Assembly (NCBI GenBank): GCA_018241165.1
Contig: JAFEEK010000043.1
Location: 1-10,250, forward strand
From: Pseudomonadota bacterium
Lineage (GTDB): Bacteria > Pseudomonadota > Gammaproteobacteria > Xanthomonadales > Rhodanobacteraceae
Reading direction: 5' to 3'
Length of the DNA: 10,250 nt
The translations under genes were made by a program, and so were the position numbers. Of this stretch, positions 219-7,871 are shown piece by piece. The notes beneath the pieces were generated by a model. That model did not search any database. It saw nothing but the letters and a program-made list of their open reading frames with translations, and was not told the origin of the DNA. Within the stretch, counting starts at the first letter, position 1; each line of letters begins with the position of its first letter.

Positions 219-2435
219 ATGAAAACGTACTGGCCTGCCCTTGTGCTGGCGGTTTGCGCGTCCATCGCCACGACGTCCGCAGCGGCGCAGAATCCGCAGC
301 TCGCGGCCAACCCCAACTTGCAGCTGCTGATCGCGGGCGAGGTCGATGCCGTGCTGCGCCTGCCCGACGGCAGCGTGGTCATTGGCGGAAAATTCAGTTC
401 GGTGAATGGCACCACGCGCAAGAACATCGCCAAGATCAAGGCGGACGGCACGCTCGATACCGCATGGGATCCGGCGGCAAACGGCCAGGTTCGCGCACTC
501 GCGCGCGATGCGCAGAACAACATCTACGTCGGCGGATTTTTCAGCGACTATGGCGCGGCGCAGATCAGCATCGGCGGCCAGGTGCGCAACTACCTCGCGA
601 AATTATCGGCGACGGGCACCGGCGCGGCGGATGCAACGTGGAATCCGAATCCGGGTTCCGCTGTGTTCGCGCTCGCCTTCGACGGCATTGACGCGTTGTA
701 TGTCGGCGGTAGCTTCACGAATATCGGCGGCCAATCCATCGCGCGCTTGGCCAAGGTTTCTGCCGCGACGGCAACGGTCGATGCGAGCTGGAACCCGGCG
801 CCCGGCAACTCCAGCATCAATGCGCTCGTGTTCGACGGCGGCAGTGTTTACGCGGCTGGTGGATTCACGTCCATAGGCGGCCAGCCGTTCAAGGGCCTGG
901 CCAGACTTGCCGCGACCGGTACAGGCCAGGCCGATGCGGCCTGGAATCCTGCGCCCGACCAACCGGTGTCCGCACTGGCAGCCGACGGACTGGGCAATCT
1001 GTATGTCGGCGGCAGTTTCAACGCGATCGGCGGACAGACGCGTAGCTACCTTGCCCGGCTTGCCGCAGCGGGTAACGGCGCCGCGGATGCGACGTGGAAT
1101 CCGGCACCGAACAGCCTCGTCACCGCCTTGTGCGCCGACGCCGCGAACAACGCGATATTTGCCGGCGGGTATTTCACTTCGATCGGCGGCCAGTCGCGCA
1201 AATTCCTGGCGCGACTGTCCGGCATGGGCTCAGGCAACGCGGATGGCGCATGGGATGCTGCGGCCGACAGCCTCGTGCTCGCCCTCGCCAGCGGCGGCGG
1301 CAAGGTCTACGCGGGTGGTTCGTTTTCGCACGTTGCGACGCAGTTGCGCATGGGCTATGCCGCCATCGCCAGCAGCGGGGCAGCCACGCTCGCCGCCGCC
1401 GCAGACGTGGGCAATCCCGGATCGATACAAGCGCTGGTTCGACAAAACAATGGCGGCATCATTGCCGGTGGCGCCTTCGTCAAGGTCAATGGGCAGGCGC
1501 ACGGCAACCTGCTGCGCCTGAACCCCGACGGCACGCTCGACAACGGCTGGCATCCGCAGGTCGATGTGCTGGTCAAAGCGCTGGCGCTGGATGCGGTCGG
1601 CAACGTTTTTGTCGGCGGCGTGTTCTCGCAAATCGACGGCCTGTCGCGCAAGGGGCTGGCCAAACTGTCCGCCGCGGGCATCGTGGATCCGAACTGGAAT
1701 CCGCAACTCACCGCGACGCCGTTCAACGGCTACGCCATGGCGCTTGCGACCGACGCGGCCGGCAACGTGTATGTCGGCGGATCGTTCACGCAGGCCGCTG
1801 GCCTGGCGCGCAAGAACCTGGCGAAGATTCCCGGCAGTGGCAACGGCACGCCCGACGCGAACTGGATGCCGGAGCCGAACAACAACGTCTACGCACTGGC
1901 CACCGACAACGCCGGCAACGTTTTTGTCGGTGGTTCGTTCAGCAGCGTCGGCGGGGGCAACCACAACCATCTCGCCAAACTTTCTGCCGGCGGCGCCGGC
2001 AGCGCCGACCCGGCATGGACGATCAGTGGCGCCTACACGCAGGCTTTGCTGGTGTCGAATGGCTGGCTCTACGTCGGTGGCTCCTCGTACCTGAAGAAAA
2101 TCCAGATCGCCACCGGCAACATCGACGCGGGCTGGAATCCGGTTCCGAATTCGGCAGTCAACGCTCTGTCACTGGATGGCGGCGGCAATCTGTATGCCGG
2201 CGGCGATTTCGATCACATGGGCAGTTTCGCGCGCGAAGGCATCGCCAGGATATTTCCCGACGGCACGATCGATCCCGGCTGGGATGCGCAACTGGTGGAC
2301 GACTCCACCAAAGCCTTGATTGCCGAAGGCGGCGCGGTCGTGGCTGGCGGCTACTTCAACACCATCGCGGGCGGCGCGCGCATGGGACTTGCGCGTCTGC
2401 AAGGCGATTCGATCTTTGCCAACGGCTTTGAGTAA
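219..2435 (+). CDS. Exported delta-60 repeat (DUF5122) beta-propeller-like protein
   Basis: This 738-residue protein begins with a signal peptide (MKTYWPALVLAVCASIATTSAAAQ, cleavage likely near residue 23-24). It is otherwise built almost entirely of tandem units with the pattern ALA-x-D-x2-GN-[VLI]-[YF]-VGGSF-x3-GG-x-[ST]-R-x2-LA-[KR]-L-x-[AP]-x-G ending in [AT]WNP-x-P. I count 14 [VA]GG-x-F units spaced about 45-60 residues. The seventh has lost its W-x-P end and the twelfth has lost its Phe. This is the delta-60 repeat (DUF5122) family, expected to form beta-propeller or solenoid folds outside the cytoplasm. No enzymatic motif is visible. The last residues, IFANGFE, match the end of the upstream gene product. 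Its role is unknown; adhesion or surface binding is a guess. No promoter is recognised in the 73-bp gap, so it may be co-transcribed with the upstream gene. Confidence 0.9.
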   Translation: MKTYWPALVLAVCASIATTSAAAQNPQLAANPNLQLLIAGEVDAVLRLPDGSVVIGGKFSSVNGTTRKNIAKIKADGTLDTAWDPAANGQVRALARDAQNNIYVGGFFSDYGAAQISIGGQVRNYLAKLSATGTGAADATWNPNPGSAVFALAFDGIDALYVGGSFTNIGGQSIARLAKVSAATATVDASWNPAPGNSSINALVFDGGSVYAAGGFTSIGGQPFKGLARLAATGTGQADAAWNPAPDQPVSALAADGLGNLYVGGSFNAIGGQTRSYLARLAAAGNGAADATWNPAPNSLVTALCADAANNAIFAGGYFTSIGGQSRKFLARLSGMGSGNADGAWDAAADSLVLALASGGGKVYAGGSFSHVATQLRMGYAAIASSGAATLAAAADVGNPGSIQALVRQNNGGIIAGGAFVKVNGQAHGNLLRLNPDGTLDNGWHPQVDVLVKALALDAVGNVFVGGVFSQIDGLSRKGLAKLSAAGIVDPNWNPQLTATPFNGYAMALATDAAGNVYVGGSFTQAAGLARKNLAKIPGSGNGTPDANWMPEPNNNVYALATDNAGNVFVGGSFSSVGGGNHNHLAKLSAGGAGSADPAWTISGAYTQALLVSNGWLYVGGSSYLKKIQIATGNIDAGWNPVPNSAVNALSLDGGGNLYAGGDFDHMGSFAREGIARIFPDGTIDPGWDAQLVDDSTKALIAEGGAVVAGGYFNTIAGGARMGLARLQGDSIFANGFE
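333..2390 (+). repeat. Tandem coding repeats of the delta-60 type
   Basis: The coding sequence contains about 14 diverged tandem units of roughly 135-180 bp. Core stretches such as GGCAACGTTTTTGTCGG, GGCAACGTGTATGTCGG and GGCAATCTGTATGTCGG recur at 1600-1616, 1762-1778, 1915-1931 and near 994 and 2182. Conservation is stronger at the protein level than in DNA, so the array is old rather than freshly expanded. Confidence 0.8.
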
Positions 2436-2441
2436 GGATCG

Positions 2442-3260
2442 TCAATCCAGAAACAAATCCGGCAGCAACGGCTGTGCCGGGTCGACGGCGTAGCCGGAAA
2501 AATCGCTGACGCCCGACTCGCGCAGCACGTCCTCGTCGATGAAAAATCTGCCGGTCGCCGCACGTGCGGGCTGCGTCAGGATCGCATGCGCGGCATCGGC
2601 AAGTATTTCCGGCTTGCGGCAACGGTTCGTCGGAATCCCCGGAATCATGTTCAGTGCGTCGGTGGCGATGATGGTGCGCGGCCACAGTGCATTGATGGCG
2701 ACGCCCTTGCCGGCGAACTCGGCGGCAAGACCGAGCGTGACGAAGCTCATGCCCATTTTTGCGAGAGTGTAACCCGTGTGCGGCGCCCACCATTTCGGAT
2801 CGAGCGAGGGCGGCGGCGCCAGCGTGAGGATATGCGGATTGGATGATTTCAACAGATGCGGCAGGCAGGCCTGCGCGCACAGAAAACTGCCGCGCGCGTT
2901 GACCTGCTGCATCAGGTCGAAGCGCTTCATCGGCGTGTCGAGCGCGCCGCGCAGCCAGATCGCGCTCGCGTTGTTGACGAGGATATCGATGCCGCCGAAG
3001 CGCGCGACGGTGGCGGCAACCGCAGCGTGCACGTTGTCCTCTTCGCGGATGTCGCACTTGATCGCCAGCGCCTTGCCGCCGGCGGCTTCGACGGCCGCGG
3101 CCGCGCTGTGGATGGTGCCTGGCAGTTTCGGATTGGGTACATCGGACTTCGCCGCGATGACGATGTTGGCGCCGTCGCGCGCGGCGCTCAACGCGATCGC
3201 AAGGCCGATGCCGCGCGAGGCGCCGGTGATGAACAGGGTTTTGCCGGCCAGTGGGGTCAT
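2442..3260 (-). CDS. Short-chain dehydrogenase/reductase, HSDL2-like
   Basis: A 272-residue SDR-family oxidoreductase counted from ATG 3260. It has the cofactor motif TGASRGIG (12-19), the NNAS motif (96-99), an Asn in QQVNARG (121) and the YxxxK pair in YTLAK (Y164, K168). A C-terminal stretch, GRFFIDEDVLRESG and then FSGYAVDP, is typical of the N-terminal oxidoreductase domain of hydroxysteroid dehydrogenase-like protein 2 (HSDL2). There is no SCP2 sterol-carrier domain. Position 148, where HSDL2 has the active-site Ser (ISPP), is Ala (LAPPP), with a Ser four residues on. The substrate is unknown. A GTG at 3281 would add seven residues (MILDDID). I prefer ATG 3260 because MTPLAGKTLFITG begins like other SDRs; neither start has a strong ribosome site. 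The gene converges on the delta-60 gene with 6 bp between stops and diverges from the nor-like operon. Confidence 0.88.
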   Translation of the reverse strand: MTPLAGKTLFITGASRGIGLAIALSAARDGANIVIAAKSDVPNPKLPGTIHSAAAAVEAAGGKALAIKCDIREEDNVHAAVAATVARFGGIDILVNNASAIWLRGALDTPMKRFDLMQQVNARGSFLCAQACLPHLLKSSNPHILTLAPPPSLDPKWWAPHTGYTLAKMGMSFVTLGLAAEFAGKGVAINALWPRTIIATDALNMIPGIPTNRCRKPEILADAAHAILTQPARAATGRFFIDEDVLRESGVSDFSGYAVDPAQPLLPDLFLD

Positions 3261-3381
3261 GTCGATGTCGTCCAGGATCACGTTCCGAGTCTAGCGGATT
3301 GCGAGACGCGAAGGATTCAGGGTTGACAGCATGATTTTGCGGGAGTAAACCCGACGCGCACTCAGCGCGATGGGAGCCGCC
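3261..3381. promoter_or_regulatory. Divergent intergenic region, weak sigma70-like elements towards norS
   Basis: This gap separates the SDR gene (minus) from the nor-like operon (plus) and must hold the promoters of both. A perfect TTGACA is at 3323-3328. At 17 bp spacing the -10 position reads TAAACC (3346-3351), a poor match, so an activator may be needed. A small inverted repeat CGCGC-ACTCA-GCGCG lies at 3355-3369. No FNR/Dnr box (TTGAT-N4-ATCAA) and no clear NsrR site is visible. The promoter call is tentative. Confidence 0.3.
3372..3376 (+). promoter_or_regulatory. Ribosome binding site deciding the norS start
   Basis: GGGAG sits 5 nt before ATG 3382. The upstream in-frame ATG at 3370 has no Shine-Dalgarno sequence before it and overlaps this site, so 3382 is preferred. 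Confidence 0.65.
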
Positions 3382-3924
3382 ATGATCCAGGACGCGATTT
3401 GGTACATTGCATTGACCGGCATGGGCCTGGTCGCCGTGGGCTTCATCTACGTAATCTCCCAGGCAGGCAAGTCGGCCGACGCCGCCGCCACAAGCAAGTC
3501 CGCGCATACTTCCAACGTGCTGCGACGCTGGCTGTTCGGCGCATTGCTCGTCATCTTCGTCACCGGCAGCTACGCCACGCTGCACCGCTTTCCGATCCCG
3601 TCGCAGGACGCATCGCTGGATGCCAAACAGGTCGTGGACGTGGTCGGCCAACAGTGGTCATGGGCGATCAATCCCGCCACCGTGCAGGCCGGGACGCCGG
3701 TGGAATTCCGCATCAGCAGCCGCGACGTGAACCACGGCTTCGCGATCTATGCACCGGACGGCCGCATCGCGATCGAAGCGCAGGCAATGCCCGGCTTCAC
3801 CAACAAGCTGCTTTACACCTTTGCCGCACCTGGCACCTACAAGGTGATGTGCCTGGAATACTGCGGCCTGGGGCATGCACCGATGACCTCCCAAATCCAG
3901 GTCGTCGCCGCGAGGGGAGACTGA
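3382..3924 (+). CDS. norS: CuA-containing subunit II of a heme-copper reductase, NorS-like
   Basis: A 180-residue membrane-anchored cupredoxin. Two hydrophobic segments (about 3-25 and 49-69) precede a periplasmic domain that starts with the GQQWSW motif of cytochrome oxidase subunit II. All binuclear CuA ligands are visible: His118 (NHGF), Cys157, Glu159, Cys161, His165 and Met168 in the arrangement C-x-E-x-C-x3-H-x2-M. It should accept electrons from a periplasmic donor such as cytochrome c and pass them to subunit I, encoded 2 bp downstream. The protein is short for an A-type CoxB and has no cytochrome c domain. Taken alone it would be annotated as cytochrome oxidase subunit II. The NorS name follows from the gene order and the altered active site of the partner. 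It is probably the first gene of the operon. Confidence 0.8.
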   Translation: MIQDAIWYIALTGMGLVAVGFIYVISQAGKSADAAATSKSAHTSNVLRRWLFGALLVIFVTGSYATLHRFPIPSQDASLDAKQVVDVVGQQWSWAINPATVQAGTPVEFRISSRDVNHGFAIYAPDGRIAIEAQAMPGFTNKLLYTFAAPGTYKVMCLEYCGLGHAPMTSQIQVVAARGD

Positions 3925-3926
3925 CC

Positions 3927-5426
3927 ATGGCCACGATGACCCTGTATCCGGACGACGAACGCCTCGCTGGTGGCGAACGCACCGCGTTCAATCTCTACAT
4001 CATTTCCTCGGTCGCGCTGTTCGTACTGATGATGCTGCTCGGCCTGACCATGCGCATGTCGCAGGCGACCTGGCTGAACGTCGCGCCGGACCTGTTCTAC
4101 CGCATCCTGTCGATGCATGGCGCCGGCATGGTCGGCACGGCTGCGCTGGTCACCACTGCGGTGATGTGGTTCTTCCTGCGCAAGTACGTCACATTGCATT
4201 TGTGGGCGTTCGTCAGCAACTACGTGCTGTTCATGATCGGTGCGGTGTGCATCATCGTCGCAATTTTCATCGACGGCTACGGCGGCTTGTGGACGTTCCT
4301 GTATCCGCTGCCCGTGCACGCCATGGGCTTGTGGACACCGAACGCCGCCGCCTTGTTCATGGCCGGCTACCTGTTCATCGGCGTCGGATCGCTGCTGTTC
4401 TACCTCGATGCCGCGGCCGGCATCATCCGCAAGTTCGGCAACCTCGGGCGTGCGCTCGGCCTGCAATGGCTGTTCGGCGGCAGCATCGACCCGAACCATC
4501 CCAAGACCGTCGTCGCCAGCACGATGGTGATCATCGCGAACACGCTGGGCATCCTCGCCGGCGCCGTCGTGCTGGTGATGAGCCTGGTCAACATCTTCTT
4601 TCCGGAAATGGCGCTGAACGCGCTGGTAGCCAAGAACCTGATCTACTGGTTCGGCCACATGTACATCAACGCCACGATCTACATGGGCGTGATCGCGGTG
4701 TATGAATTGCTGCCGCGTTATTCGCAAAAGCCCTACCCGATCTCGCGGCCGTTCCTGTGGTCGTGGGCAGCGAGTTGCCTGTTCGTGATCGTCGTGTTTC
4801 CGCACCATCTGCTGATGGACTACGCCGAACCGCGCTGGCTGCTCGTCATGGGCCAGATCGTGTCGTGGGGCGCGGGATTCCCGGTGTTCCTGGTCACCGT
4901 GTACGGCGCGCTGACCAACATCTACCGCTCCGGCATGCGCTGGACGATGCCCTCGCGCCTGATGATCCTGTCTGTGTTCGGTTGGGCGGCGGGCATCGTG
5001 CCGGCCATCCTCGACGGCACGATCCGCAACAACCTGGTGATGCACAACACGCAATGGGTGCCGGGTCATTTCCATTTCTACCTGTTGCTGGGTGTGCTGC
5101 CGATGGCGCTGGCGCTGATGTTCCACGTGATCGGCGCGCGCGCCAACCGGCCGCCGAACACGGGTGCGGACCGGGTCGGATTCCCGGTCTACTTCATCGG
5201 TGGATTGATCTTCGTGCTGGCGTTCCTGGATGCCGGCCACCTGAGCGTGGCGCGGCGCATGGCCACGCACCTGCCGGAATGGCAGTTCACCGACAAGGTC
5301 GGTTCCATCGGTGCGATGCTGGTCGTGTTGGGCATGCTGTATTTCGCGATCCGCATCACGAGCGGACTGCTCAAGGCACCCGCCGGCGGGAGCCCGCGTG
5401 ACAGCACTGCGAACGCTGCTGGTTAG
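3927..5426 (+). CDS. norY: Heme-copper subunit I lacking the catalytic Tyr, NorY-like (sNOR type)
   Basis: A 499-residue polytopic protein with about 12-13 hydrophobic segments. GAGGGGAGA lies 6 nt before ATG 3927. All heme and copper ligands of the heme-copper oxidase superfamily are present: His64 (SMHGAGM) and His383 for the low-spin heme, His381 for the high-spin heme (GHFHFY), and His244, His293 and His294 for CuB (FGHM, FPHHLL). In oxygen reductases the helix VI motif is H-P-E-V-Y or H-P-x-V-Y, with a Tyr cross-linked to the CuB His. Here it reads H244-M-Y-I-N248, so the Tyr is replaced by Asn and a Tyr lies at +2 instead. Loss of this Tyr marks the nitric oxide reductases that evolved from oxygen reductases. 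With the neighbouring CuA subunit, SenC and small membrane protein this matches the norSY-senC-orfK (sNOR) cluster. Predicted reaction: 2 NO to N2O at the cytoplasmic membrane. Heme-copper membership is certain; the substrate is inferred. Confidence 0.8.
   Translation: MATMTLYPDDERLAGGERTAFNLYIISSVALFVLMMLLGLTMRMSQATWLNVAPDLFYRILSMHGAGMVGTAALVTTAVMWFFLRKYVTLHLWAFVSNYVLFMIGAVCIIVAIFIDGYGGLWTFLYPLPVHAMGLWTPNAAALFMAGYLFIGVGSLLFYLDAAAGIIRKFGNLGRALGLQWLFGGSIDPNHPKTVVASTMVIIANTLGILAGAVVLVMSLVNIFFPEMALNALVAKNLIYWFGHMYINATIYMGVIAVYELLPRYSQKPYPISRPFLWSWAASCLFVIVVFPHHLLMDYAEPRWLLVMGQIVSWGAGFPVFLVTVYGALTNIYRSGMRWTMPSRLMILSVFGWAAGIVPAILDGTIRNNLVMHNTQWVPGHFHFYLLLGVLPMALALMFHVIGARANRPPNTGADRVGFPVYFIGGLIFVLAFLDAGHLSVARRMATHLPEWQFTDKVGSIGAMLVVLGMLYFAIRITSGLLKAPAGGSPRDSTANAAG
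5388..5392 (+). promoter_or_regulatory. Ribosome binding site inside norY for the senC GTG start
   Basis: GGGAG lies 5 nt before GTG 5398, within the last codons of norY. It supports a GTG start that makes senC overlap norY by 29 nt. Farther upstream the frame has an ATG (5311), but the residues there lack SCO character. Confidence 0.6.
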
Positions 5427-6015
5427 TCTGCTCCTGGCGGCGGCCGGTATTGCGGTACTGGCCGGCGCCACCGACGGATTTCAAGCGTTCACGACCGAAA
5501 CCGCGCGCCGCATCGACATTCGCGAGCAGCCACGCACGGTGCCGCCGATCACGCTGCAAACCGCCGCCGGCACGGACACGAGTTTTGCGAATTTGCGCGG
5601 ACGCTGGCTGCTGGTCGATTTCATCTACACCCGTTGCACGACGTACTGCACGGTGCAGGGCGGCGAATTCGCGAAATTGCAGCACGATCTGGCCGTACCG
5701 ATCGCAACTGGCAAACTGCAACTGCTCAGCGTCAGTTTCGATCCCGCCCACGACGCGCCGCCCCAACTCGCCGATTACCAGCGGCGATTCGGCGATCGCG
5801 GCGCGGGCTGGCTCGCGGTGCGGCCGACGAATACGGCGGACCTGGCGACACTCATGCGCGTGTTCGGCGTCGTCGCAGTACCGGATGGTCTGGACGGCTT
5901 CGTGCACAACGCCGCGATCGCGGTGGTCGATCCCGATGGCAGGCTGGTCGCGATCCTGGATTGGGACGATCCGCAAGGCGCAGCGCGTTATGTCATGAAG
6001 GAACTCGCGCCGTGA
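5398..6015 (+). CDS. senC: SCO1/SenC-type copper chaperone / thioredoxin-fold protein
   Basis: A 205-residue protein with one N-terminal hydrophobic segment (about 5-26), acting as a membrane anchor or uncleaved signal, followed by a periplasmic thioredoxin-like fold. The SCO copper ligands are visible: Cys80 and Cys84 in RCTTYC (C-x3-C) and His170 in GFVHNAAIAVVDPDGRL. SCO proteins deliver copper to, or reduce, the CuA site of heme-copper reductases; the CuA subunit here is encoded two genes upstream. GTG 5398 is chosen for its Shine-Dalgarno site and because the signal segment starts right after it. The gene overlaps norY by 29 nt and the next gene by 4 nt, so it is translationally coupled to both. 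The usual C-P-x-x-C-P form is replaced by C-T-T-Y-C-T, which keeps both cysteines but loses the prolines. Confidence 0.87.
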   Translation: MTALRTLLVSLLLAAAGIAVLAGATDGFQAFTTETARRIDIREQPRTVPPITLQTAAGTDTSFANLRGRWLLVDFIYTRCTTYCTVQGGEFAKLQHDLAVPIATGKLQLLSVSFDPAHDAPPQLADYQRRFGDRGAGWLAVRPTNTADLATLMRVFGVVAVPDGLDGFVHNAAIAVVDPDGRLVAILDWDDPQGAARYVMKELAP

Positions 6016-6587
6016 CAGCGCCCCGCCGTGATTTTCTCGTCGGCGCGATCGCGTGGATGCTGTTGGTGATCCCGCCAATGCGGCAGGCGCTGGGATCCAC
6101 GATGACGTTGCAGATGCTGGTGCAGATTCCGCTGCTGGCGGCGGCAGGCTGGTTGATCGCGCAAGCAATCCCGGCACGGCTGGACGCCCGCATCGCACGC
6201 TGGAACCGCAGCGGCATCAGCGGCATCGTGCTGGCGTCTTTCGCCGGCATGGTGTGGATGCTGCCGAGAGCGCTGGATGCGGCGCTGGATGATCCGCATG
6301 TCGCCTGGGCCAAGTTCCTGAGCATGCCGCTGCTGGTCGGTGTGCCAATCGCGATGAGCTGGCCGCGCGCGGGATTCGTGGTGCGTGGTGTGCTGCTGAT
6401 CGAGTTGATCGCGACTGCGTTCCGGCTGGGCTGGCTGTACCTGATTTCCCCGGTGCGCCTTTGCAGCAATTACCTGCTCGACGACCAGCAGCAATTGGGC
6501 CGCTACCTGCTGGCGATCGGCGTCGTGGCCGTCGCCGTGCTGACGTGGAAACTCATGTGGGGGCGCGGTAATCCGGATCGAGTCTGA
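6012..6587 (+). CDS. Six-segment membrane protein, OrfK-like fourth gene of the nor cluster
   Basis: A 191-residue hydrophobic protein with about six membrane segments (8-22, 32-52, 69-84, 101-117, 122-145, 164-183). It has one cysteine, in RLCSNYLLDDQQQLG, which looks like a conserved loop before the last helix. GTG 6012 overlaps the senC stop (GTGA), and AAGGAA at 5998-6003 is a good ribosome site 8 nt before it. I recognise no catalytic or heme-ligand motif. Its place after senC matches the small membrane protein (orf1/OrfK) in the norSY-senC-orfK cluster of ammonia oxidisers, so a role in assembly or stability of the NO reductase is the best guess. Its last 35 bp overlap the end of the regulator gene on the other strand. 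Confidence 0.72.
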   Translation: MTAPRRDFLVGAIAWMLLVIPPMRQALGSTMTLQMLVQIPLLAAAGWLIAQAIPARLDARIARWNRSGISGIVLASFAGMVWMLPRALDAALDDPHVAWAKFLSMPLLVGVPIAMSWPRAGFVVRGVLLIELIATAFRLGWLYLISPVRLCSNYLLDDQQQLGRYLLAIGVVAVAVLTWKLMWGRGNPDRV

Positions 6588-7212
6588 AGCGGCACGCCGG
6601 CTGCCCGTGCAACATGCACGAGGTACGCTGCACGGGACGTCCAGTCGCGGCACTCATGAACGCAAGGTCGAAGCGGCATACGTCGGGATGTTGGCGAGCG
6701 AGCGCGTGGAATACGCAGTTCCAGGCTTCCACCTCCGTGTGACCATCGGCCGGCACGACCCGAGCTTCGTAACCGAGCGCATCGAGTTGCTCGGCGAGAA
6801 GGCGCGTGGCCTCATCGCGATCGGCGGCGGTGGCGATTCGCGCCGCCGCGTCCTTGCCGAGCGTCGCGCCCATTTGCGCCAGCATGTCCTGCACGGCGTG
6901 CGTGCCGGCATGCGCGTAAAGGTGTTCGATCATGCCGGCTGCAATCAGGGCGTAATTGCGCGGGAAAAGCTCGCGCCCTTGCGCAGTAATGACAAAGCAC
7001 GCGCGCGGCCGACCGCCGCTCGGCGCCGATTGGCCGCGCACGACGAAACCCTGCGCCAGCAATGCGGTCAGGTGTTGCCTGACCGCATTGTGGGTGACGC
7101 CCAATGCGCTGCACAGTTCTTCCACGGTCATGCCTTGCGCACTGGCAATCAGCGTGCGCAGCAATTTCTGCTGCGTGACCCCAAGTTGCCGCAGGGCGCT
7201 CGTGTTCTTCAA
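6553..7212 (-). CDS. Winged-helix transcriptional regulator with four-Cys Fe-S-type sensor domain (SufR/COG2345-like)
   Basis: A 219-residue protein with an N-terminal winged helix. MTVEELCSALGVTHNAVRQHL (28-48) is the helix-turn-helix, and the SGGRPR wing (65-70) is typical of the DeoR/ArsR-like group COG2345. The C-terminal half carries Cys166, Cys179, Cys199 and Cys207 (C-x12-C-x19-C-x7-C). In SufR-type members such cysteines hold an iron-sulfur cluster; the first spacing (x12) matches what I recall for SufR, the others differ. Fe-S binding is inferred. The start is TTG 7212, which overlaps the stop of the preceding gene (TTGA), with AAGG 4 nt before it. There is no other start between that point and the HTH, and upstream codons belong to the neighbour read in another frame. 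It is co-transcribed with the His-rich exported protein and faces the nor-like operon, which it may regulate. Confidence 0.82.
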   Translation of the reverse strand: MKNTSALRQLGVTQQKLLRTLIASAQGMTVEELCSALGVTHNAVRQHLTALLAQGFVVRGQSAPSGGRPRACFVITAQGRELFPRNYALIAAGMIEHLYAHAGTHAVQDMLAQMGATLGKDAAARIATAADRDEATRLLAEQLDALGYEARVVPADGHTEVEAWNCVFHALARQHPDVCRFDLAFMSAATGRPVQRTSCMLHGQPACRFRLDPDYRAPT

Positions 7213-7871
7213 TTGGCCTTGTCCGGGAACTGCTTGGCGATGCCATCGGCCAGGGTGTCGGCGATCATGTCCATGTGATGCTGCATCTGCGTCCACGACT
7301 TTTCCTGTTCGGCGGCAGGCGCGTTCGACATCATCTGGTCGACCTGGATCATGTGGTCGTTGACATGCATCGCCAAAGCGCCCTGCAGCGCGCCTTGCGT
7401 CCAGTTCGGGTTTGCGCCGGCAAGGAACTTGGCGATCGCCGTGCCGTTGTCGAGCGCAGCCGTCTCGGCTTTCTGCTCTGCGGTCTTGTCGCCGGCATGT
7501 GCGGCATCGGTCATGTCCTTGACCGCGCCCCAATGGCCAGCCAGCAATTTCAGCAGGCCGTCGCCCGCATCCTTGCCATAGAAGCCGGCAACCGCATTGG
7601 CGATGTCCTTGGCATTGGCGACGACCGCATCGGCCGCCTTCGTCTCATTGGCCTTGTTGCCGGCGTGCACCGCCAGCGCGTAGTCGTGCGTGGCGACGAG
7701 ATGGCCATGCCACAGCGAGCGCAGCGCCGCGTGCAACTTCGGCGCCGTCGCCGCCGCAGATACGGCGGTGGCGTGTGCAGAATGGGGCGCTTCGTGCGCA
7801 AAAATGGCCGGCGCGGACGCGGCGAACGCAAATCCAAGCGCCAATGCGCAGGCCAGAGGTAGACGTTTCAT
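7209..7871 (-). CDS. Exported His-rich helical protein with three 56-residue modules, function unknown
   Basis: A 220-residue protein with a signal peptide (MKRLPLACALALGFAFAASAPAIFA, cleavage near 25). The mature part is Ala- and His-rich and apparently all helical. It contains three tandem modules of 56 residues: His57, His113 and His169 are exactly 56 apart, HAGNK and HAGDK (69, 125) align, and IA pairs at 90, 146 and 203 align. A PNW motif is at 155-157, and the end reads IAKQFPDKAN. I recall similar uncharacterised proteins of about this size in Firmicutes, ending in a comparable QFPDKF; that is memory, not a search. The HDY, NDHM and MQHHMDM clusters could bind metal or heme, which is speculative. 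Start ATG 7871 has AGGAG 7 nt before it; an in-frame ATG at 7913 would place 14 residues before the signal peptide. It is the first gene of the regulator operon. Confidence 0.8.
   Translation of the reverse strand: MKRLPLACALALGFAFAASAPAIFAHEAPHSAHATAVSAAATAPKLHAALRSLWHGHLVATHDYALAVHAGNKANETKAADAVVANAKDIANAVAGFYGKDAGDGLLKLLAGHWGAVKDMTDAAHAGDKTAEQKAETAALDNGTAIAKFLAGANPNWTQGALQGALAMHVNDHMIQVDQMMSNAPAAEQEKSWTQMQHHMDMIADTLADGIAKQFPDKAN

Follow-up and report, generated by a model that had tools for sequence, protein, structure and literature searches.

Does the four-gene operon in a 10,250-nucleotide (nt) stretch of a Rhodanobacteraceae genome (contig JAFEEK010000043.1; the whole stretch is called the window) encode an enzyme that reduces nitric oxide (NO) or one that reduces oxygen? 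An earlier note on this DNA had read the genes as a CuA-type NO reductase (NOR) of the sNOR family that would make nitrous oxide (N2O) from NO. Four things seen in the sequence carry the answer: the gene order, the metal-ligand residues, the clade of subunit I, and the lack of a tyrosine at both positions known from oxidases. Judged from these, the operon very probably encodes an sNOR, a two-subunit CuA-type NOR with two accessory genes.

The operon occupies positions 3382–6587 of the forward strand (Table 1). Its genes are spaced at +2 nt (norS/norY), −29 nt (norY/SCO), and −4 nt (SCO/membrane-protein gene), just as the earlier note had described; open reading frame positions, Pfam matches, and residues all bear that description out. 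A second ATG lies upstream of norS at 3370, yet the relatives compared there begin at the position of 3382. In NorS, the CuA residue set is complete: H118, C157, E159, C161, H165, and M168, which we take to be the CuA ligands, do not vary across seven aligned sequences, two of them subunits of B-type oxidases. NorY carries the motif H244-x3-N248-x3-Y252 and histidines at 64, 244, 293, 294, 381, and 383, and the SCO protein has C80-x3-C84, H170, and a single N-terminal hydrophobic segment. A simple hydropathy scan gives 11 hydrophobic segments for NorY, six for the fourth protein, and two for NorS. The order matches a cluster that a passage of PMC4940428 calls norSY-senC-orf1; the label ‘norSY-senC-orfK’ of the earlier note returned no paper in a literature search.

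We placed subunit I in a tree of 65 rows (IQ-TREE, LG+C20+F+G4), built without bNOR, gNOR, nNOR, or Nitrosomonas sequences. Type labels of unnamed rows were assigned by us from motif and similarity, and the B-type rows are plasmid and genome sequences, not that of T. thermophilus. The 29 sNOR-type rows, the window included, form one clade (100/99) that is separate from the A-type (9), B-type (3), C-type (5), eNOR (6), cNOR (5), and qNOR (3) rows. This clade contains Nitrococcus mobilis (L045) and Ruegeria pomeroyi (L117), which we take to be the former Silicibacter, and, at deeper positions, Thermomicrobium roseum (L118) and the genome G538. The weak points of the tree are the cNOR group (85/37), five scattered rows that could not be named, and long branches on the qNOR/cNOR side, of which the program warns. 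Silicibacter is listed as an sNOR carrier in Table A4 of PMC8756737, and Nitrococcus is named as one in a passage of PMC6967387. On this placement, which upholds the family assignment of the earlier note within the types sampled, the window operon is an ordinary member of the known sNOR family.

The active site separates the same groups. We denote by H+4 and H+8 the residues four and eight after the first CuB histidine. H+4 is asparagine in all 29 sNOR rows, tyrosine in all 12 A- and B-type rows, glutamine in 6/6 eNOR rows, glutamate in 8/8 cNOR and qNOR rows, and glycine or alanine in 5/5 C-type rows; H+8 is tyrosine in 29/29 sNOR rows and glutamate in the eight cNOR and qNOR rows. All six histidines are kept throughout the sNOR clade. 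The column of the helix VII tyrosine of C-type oxidases, Y in 5/5 C rows, holds V (28 rows, with V287 in the window) or I (one row) in sNOR. Since the cross-linked tyrosine of A- and B-type oxygen reductases is replaced by Asn248 in NorY, four-electron splitting of O2 is disfavoured. The contrary outcome, a subunit I inside an oxidase clade with its tyrosine elsewhere, was looked for in the tree and the alignment and was not seen. In a printed alignment with ba3 oxidase, the tyrosines at H+4 and H+11 are replaced in NorY and that at H+15 is kept; the ba3 tyrosines compared are presumably proton-channel residues. Membership in eNOR, cNOR, or qNOR is ruled out by the separate clade and by N/Y in place of glutamine or of two glutamates (E/E). 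Beside sNOR, on a very long branch, stands a very divergent heme-copper protein (L205, G716:C72) with Glu/Ile at H+4/H+8, possibly another uncharacterised NOR-like family.

The N/Y pair extends well beyond the tree. It is present in 238/238 homologues in which the site could be located, from 239 listed (the site of P0262 was not located); these are the top entries listed from 1985 and 623 hits, and near-copies are counted. For T. roseum, the site was located in 119 of 120 listed homologues, all of them N/Y. Asparagine at the tyrosine site has been published as the residue of sNOR (PMC8756737, Table A4), so this mark is already known; the location of H-x3-N-x3-Y in 238 of the 239 listed homologues is new, and the H+8 tyrosine is not met as an sNOR mark in the sNOR literature passages. 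The same table gives asparagine for bNOR (CuANor) as well, and, as the tree held neither bNOR nor gNOR rows, the operon might be the bNOR of Bacillota or a gNOR instead. We consider this very improbable: the clade includes the two printed sNOR carriers named above (PMC8756737, PMC6967387), bNOR is so far confined to Bacillota according to a passage of PMC11388526, gNOR has aspartate at the tyrosine site (PMC8756737, Table A4), and the gene order equals norSY-senC-orf1 (PMC4940428).

The four-gene arrangement is conserved among relatives. A scan of genome contigs found 123 relatives, of which 80 loci were kept; five loci from whole genomes bring the set to 85 besides the window. In 82 of these 85 loci, norS, norY, the SCO gene, and the membrane-protein gene stand in one order on one strand, which argues that the arrangement is not due to chance; the remaining three (L059, L061, L079) break off at a contig edge. 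Larger intergenic gaps occur in L015 (1167 nt) and L073 (370 nt). Judged by NorY, the closest carrier is Rhodanobacter sp. B05 (86%); next come metagenome-assembled genomes that bear the labels Betaproteobacteria, Lysobacterales, and Burkholderiaceae (83%). Among 398 genomes drawn evenly from the phylum, six, the window's own included, have a NorY match of at least 47% identity (E 1e-126 or better); the remaining matches among the 73 matching genomes have E 1.8e-13 or weaker and are 20 to 36% identical. Within the class, matches at 1e-40 or better occur in 14/369 genomes, its own counted, with G538 at just 33%.

Automatic annotation would make the operon an ordinary cytochrome c oxidase. Most named relatives, among those listed, are called ‘cbb3-type cytochrome c oxidase subunit I’ or ‘cytochrome c oxidase subunit 1’, NorY matches the COX1 Pfam family, and KEGG names sNOR coxA (a passage of PMC11388526). 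Yet NorY passes no NCBIfam cut-off and lies far below that of CtaD_CoxA (62.7 vs 670.75 bits), and the separate clade and the missing active-site tyrosine contradict an ordinary oxidase, an identity that is almost certainly wrong. The misnaming foreseen in the earlier note is therefore real. Its companion claim, that norB-based surveys would miss the operon, fails for this genome: it also has a cNOR, by which a survey of norB would still register the organism. A 2025 survey already has sNOR among its reference sequences (a passage of PMC12569097).

The product of the fourth gene has no match in a Pfam scan. Among 47 homologues scanned, 15 match DUF1404 at E≤1, with 4.5e-4 as the best value; the window protein is not one of these. 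A profile–profile comparison with hhalign (47 vs 7 sequences) aligns the family with CtaG over 171 columns (probability 68%, E 4.8e-5). With moderate confidence, the fourth gene probably encodes a distant CtaG/DUF1404-type assembly factor for a copper site; its homology to orf1 of Nitrosomonas europaea is assumed from the printed gene order. In T. roseum, a true Caa3_CtaG gene lies two genes downstream of the norY-like gene.

We propose that electrons, most likely from cytochrome c, would enter NorS at CuA and then reach the low-spin heme and the heme-CuB site of NorY, where two NO would be joined to N2O; the SCO protein and the CtaG-like membrane protein would serve copper delivery and assembly. 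In four relatives (L025, L028, L049, L060), NorS continues for another ∼130 residues that include the heme c motif CxxCH, joining CuA and heme c in a caa3-like manner; such a fusion fits cytochrome c as the donor. The four were found by chance through a NirK query, and others may exist. Reading these ‘NirK’ hits inside the operon as a cupredoxin insert proved wrong; they mark the heme c domain at the end of these NorS proteins, which the query detects since the genome's own NirK also contains such a domain.

Upstream of norS we searched 75 loci for an NsrR-type palindrome (ATGYAT-N5-ATRCAT, at most one mismatch). It is present in 12; elsewhere in the loci it occurs four times in 886 kb, from which 0.06 hits would be expected, and expectations from shuffled upstream sequence (0.06, maximum 1) and order-1 random sequence (0.14, maximum 2) are similarly low. 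With E 1e-10 as the threshold, 11 of the 12 palindrome loci have an NsrR-like gene, and in the twelfth (L079) the contig stops short of the place. When the window is counted with 80 loci, 17 of the 81 sequences have such a gene, three of them supplying queries and one, in L011, being a weak match 2 kb off. Three of the NsrR-like proteins were tested, and the best NCBIfam match of each was NsrR, under its curated cut-off. An exact FNR/DNR box lies at −78 to −80 in 4/75 loci (L006, L012, L019, L022), with two hits elsewhere (0.03 expected) and none in 100 rounds of each shuffle. Loci with either box include close kin, and the palindrome loci amount, by our reading, to about five lineages. Twenty further loci were held out, 19 of them usable, as L141 lacks norS, and their pattern agrees. 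The palindrome, again at one mismatch or fewer, is found in four (L086, L088, L132, L137), whereas the 75 kb that start at norS contain no hit. Nine have an NsrR-like gene, L117 being a query source, and two (L086, L142) have an exact FNR box, with two hits at one mismatch or fewer in the 75 kb. For Nitrosococcus oceani, a table in a passage of PMC3772326 places NsrR (Noc2967) near SenC, NorY, and NorS (Noc2969–2971), at two locus tags from SenC. Literature passages on NsrR together with norY or sNOR name no box, and the palindrome upstream of norS is new here as a set of predicted sites. Together with the active site, this link to NsrR makes NO the most likely sNOR substrate.

The host genome would allow such a role. 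Its assembly (2.45 Mb in 515 contigs) is 89.6% complete and contains three genes of the COX1 family: an A-type, aa3-type oxidase (C62), the sNOR, and a NorB-type gene (C92) that has the E/E motif, falls in the cNOR group, and stands next to a NorC-like CxxCH protein. NirK is matched above cut-off, which makes a supply of NO plausible. The search for norB and other terminal oxidases that the earlier note had proposed thus yielded a cNOR and an aa3-type oxidase; no cytochrome cd1, bd, or cbb3 match was found, although roughly a tenth of the genome may be absent from the assembly. There is no match to the TIGR04244 NosZ model; no search aimed at clade II nosZ (TIGR04246) or at nitrate reductase was made. 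By its gene content, the organism should be able to make NO, with two NOR types standing ready.

The alternative to be weighed most carefully is that sNOR works mainly on O2, as a terminal oxidase of high affinity that tolerates NO, and reduces NO in a side reaction; several observations weigh against an NOR. We know of no sNOR that has been purified and assayed. A strong nitrite reductase match occurs, by our count, in just 9 of 20 sNOR-bearing genomes (above cut-off, some weakly: NirK in 3/20, the cd1 family in 7/20). Sets of cbb3 genes stand about 1 to 3 kb from the operon in two cases, upstream of it in Ruegeria and 3 kb away in G115:C1. The nearest solved chains to NorY in a profile search are oxidases, led by T. 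thermophilus ba3 (E 9.7e-22). No NsrR-like gene accompanies 64 of the 81 sequences; the window itself has no NsrR box, no FNR/DNR box, and no NsrR-like gene, and the FNR boxes of relatives would respond to low O2 too. A tyrosine directly before the CuB Pro-His-His, present in 22 of the 29 sNOR rows and replaced by phenylalanine in the other seven, the window among them, leaves a tyrosine near the active site possible for some members, not for all. In the literature, sNOR was ranked in 2024 among the proposed NORs (a passage of PMC11388526), and transcripts of N. europaea sNOR and senC rose 2.7- to 10.8-fold under O2 limitation, for which the authors of PMC6967387, in the passage concerned, favour a high-affinity oxidase; the earlier note's claim of N2O from NO, supported here as a reading of the sequence, is disputed to that extent. 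The slot for a high-affinity oxidase also appears empty in the window's genome, which has one aa3-type oxidase, one cNOR, and one sNOR and no bd match, but in an assembly 90% complete the lacking oxidases may be missing data. Against an oxidase stand the loss of the active-site tyrosine from both known positions in 29/29 rows and the NsrR-type boxes and NsrR-like genes at operons of relatives. The same passage of PMC6967387, citing Fussel 2017, speaks of a first, indirect sign that the Nitrococcus mobilis sNOR reduces NO. We regard the oxidase as unlikely, with a small though real chance of being right, and keep the sNOR as an NOR.

A more specific version of the NOR can be put forward tentatively. 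In cNOR, one of the two active-site glutamates is a ligand of FeB and the other a second-shell residue. sNOR might be a dedicated, NO-regulated NOR with a heme-CuB site and no FeB, in which the H-x3-N-x3-Y helix would take the place of the E/E pair and the strictly kept tyrosine, two turns away from the CuB histidine, would do the proton or redox work of the cNOR glutamate; it would be NsrR-controlled in several lineages, and the window branch would have left NsrR/FNR for a plain promoter. We find this version conceivable and somewhat doubtful. A weak candidate for such a promoter is read by eye upstream of norS (Table 1); its TTGACA hexamer recurs in the near relatives L004, L057, L033, L007, and L011, and a consensus scan of the window passed no promoter.

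Comparison with known systems shows how far the likeness goes. The sNOR of N. mobilis Nb-231 shares the four genes, their order, the asparagine, and the six histidines, with subunit I 69% identical; its flanking genes differ, and its two COX1-family matches (A-type and sNOR) include no cNOR, unlike the window's genome. On the megaplasmid of R. pomeroyi DSS-3, the same four genes stand in the same order and clade at 47% identity, whereas the flanks hold an Rrf2-family regulator and ccoNOQP upstream and a formate/nitrite transporter downstream. N. europaea, compared by description, has the same printed order (norSY-senC-orf1, NE0683-86) and likewise a cNOR (a passage of PMC4940428), but is an ammonia oxidiser. 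The sNOR-like pair on the T. roseum plasmid branches deeply; a formate/nitrite transporter and the CtaG gene are annotated in its vicinity, and SCO is not. The ba3 (B-type) oxidase shares a CuA subunit II and differs in its active-site tyrosine and its separate clade. eNOR, in literature passages, is likewise a CuA-type NOR with a cupredoxin subunit II, and differs by glutamine at the tyrosine site and a separate clade. Genes of the eNOR type, with glutamine at the site, were seen about 1 to 13 kb from cytochrome cd1-family genes in G716:C120, G724:C5, and G366:C34 (L195, L196, L197); these three genomes also carry sNOR, and G716 holds cNOR, eNOR, and sNOR.

Downstream and convergent to the operon lies a pair of genes on the reverse strand (6553–7871). 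One encodes a SufR-like winged-helix regulator with cysteines at 34, 72, 166, 179, 199, and 207; it is preceded, with overlapping start and stop, by the gene for a 220-residue protein that has a single hydrophobic segment at its N-terminal end and matches no Pfam family significantly. Most named relatives of the regulator among 120 listed are Rhodanobacteraceae. As a part of the sNOR system it was rejected, being found in 0/80 related loci (tblastn, fetched flanks of at most 6 kb). The window contains no tRNA and no Rfam family above its gathering score, and the operon DNA has no near match in an E. coli collection.

Table 1. Position and supporting evidence of the features discussed in the window.
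Feature	Position	Strand	Evidence
norS-like CuA subunit II, 180 amino acids	3382..3924	+	COX2 Pfam 1.7e-8; ATG start
norY-like heme-copper subunit I, 499 amino acids	3927..5426	+	COX1 Pfam 3.7e-45; sNOR clade 100/99; motif counts
SCO/SenC copper-chaperone-like protein	5398..6015	+	SCO1-SenC Pfam 4.9e-16; GTG start; residues
orf1 (‘orfK’), six-segment membrane protein	6012..6587	+	GTG start; hydropathy scan
Possible sigma-70-like promoter, TTGACA - 17 nt - TAAACC, weak	3323..3351	+	Read from sequence
SufR-like winged-helix regulator	6553-7212	-	SufR model E 6.1e-17, 62 bits, below cut-off 178.8
Large DUF5122 beta-propeller repeat protein, 9 stretches	222-2435	+	Pfam
Short-chain dehydrogenase, divergent to norS, 100 bp between	2442-3281	-	Pfam

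The motif H-x3-N-x3-Y sets sNOR apart from oxidases and from each further NOR type in the sample, which did not include bNOR or gNOR, and the NsrR-type boxes offer a simple way to tell an NO response of sNOR from a low-O2 response. sNOR, whose substrate is disputed in the literature (a passage of PMC6967387), is among the least tested routes to N2O, a greenhouse gas, and it is carried by Rhodanobacter and many related genomes, often under an oxidase name. If the more specific version put forward above is true, sNOR would represent an independent way of reducing NO, built on the scaffold of an oxidase.

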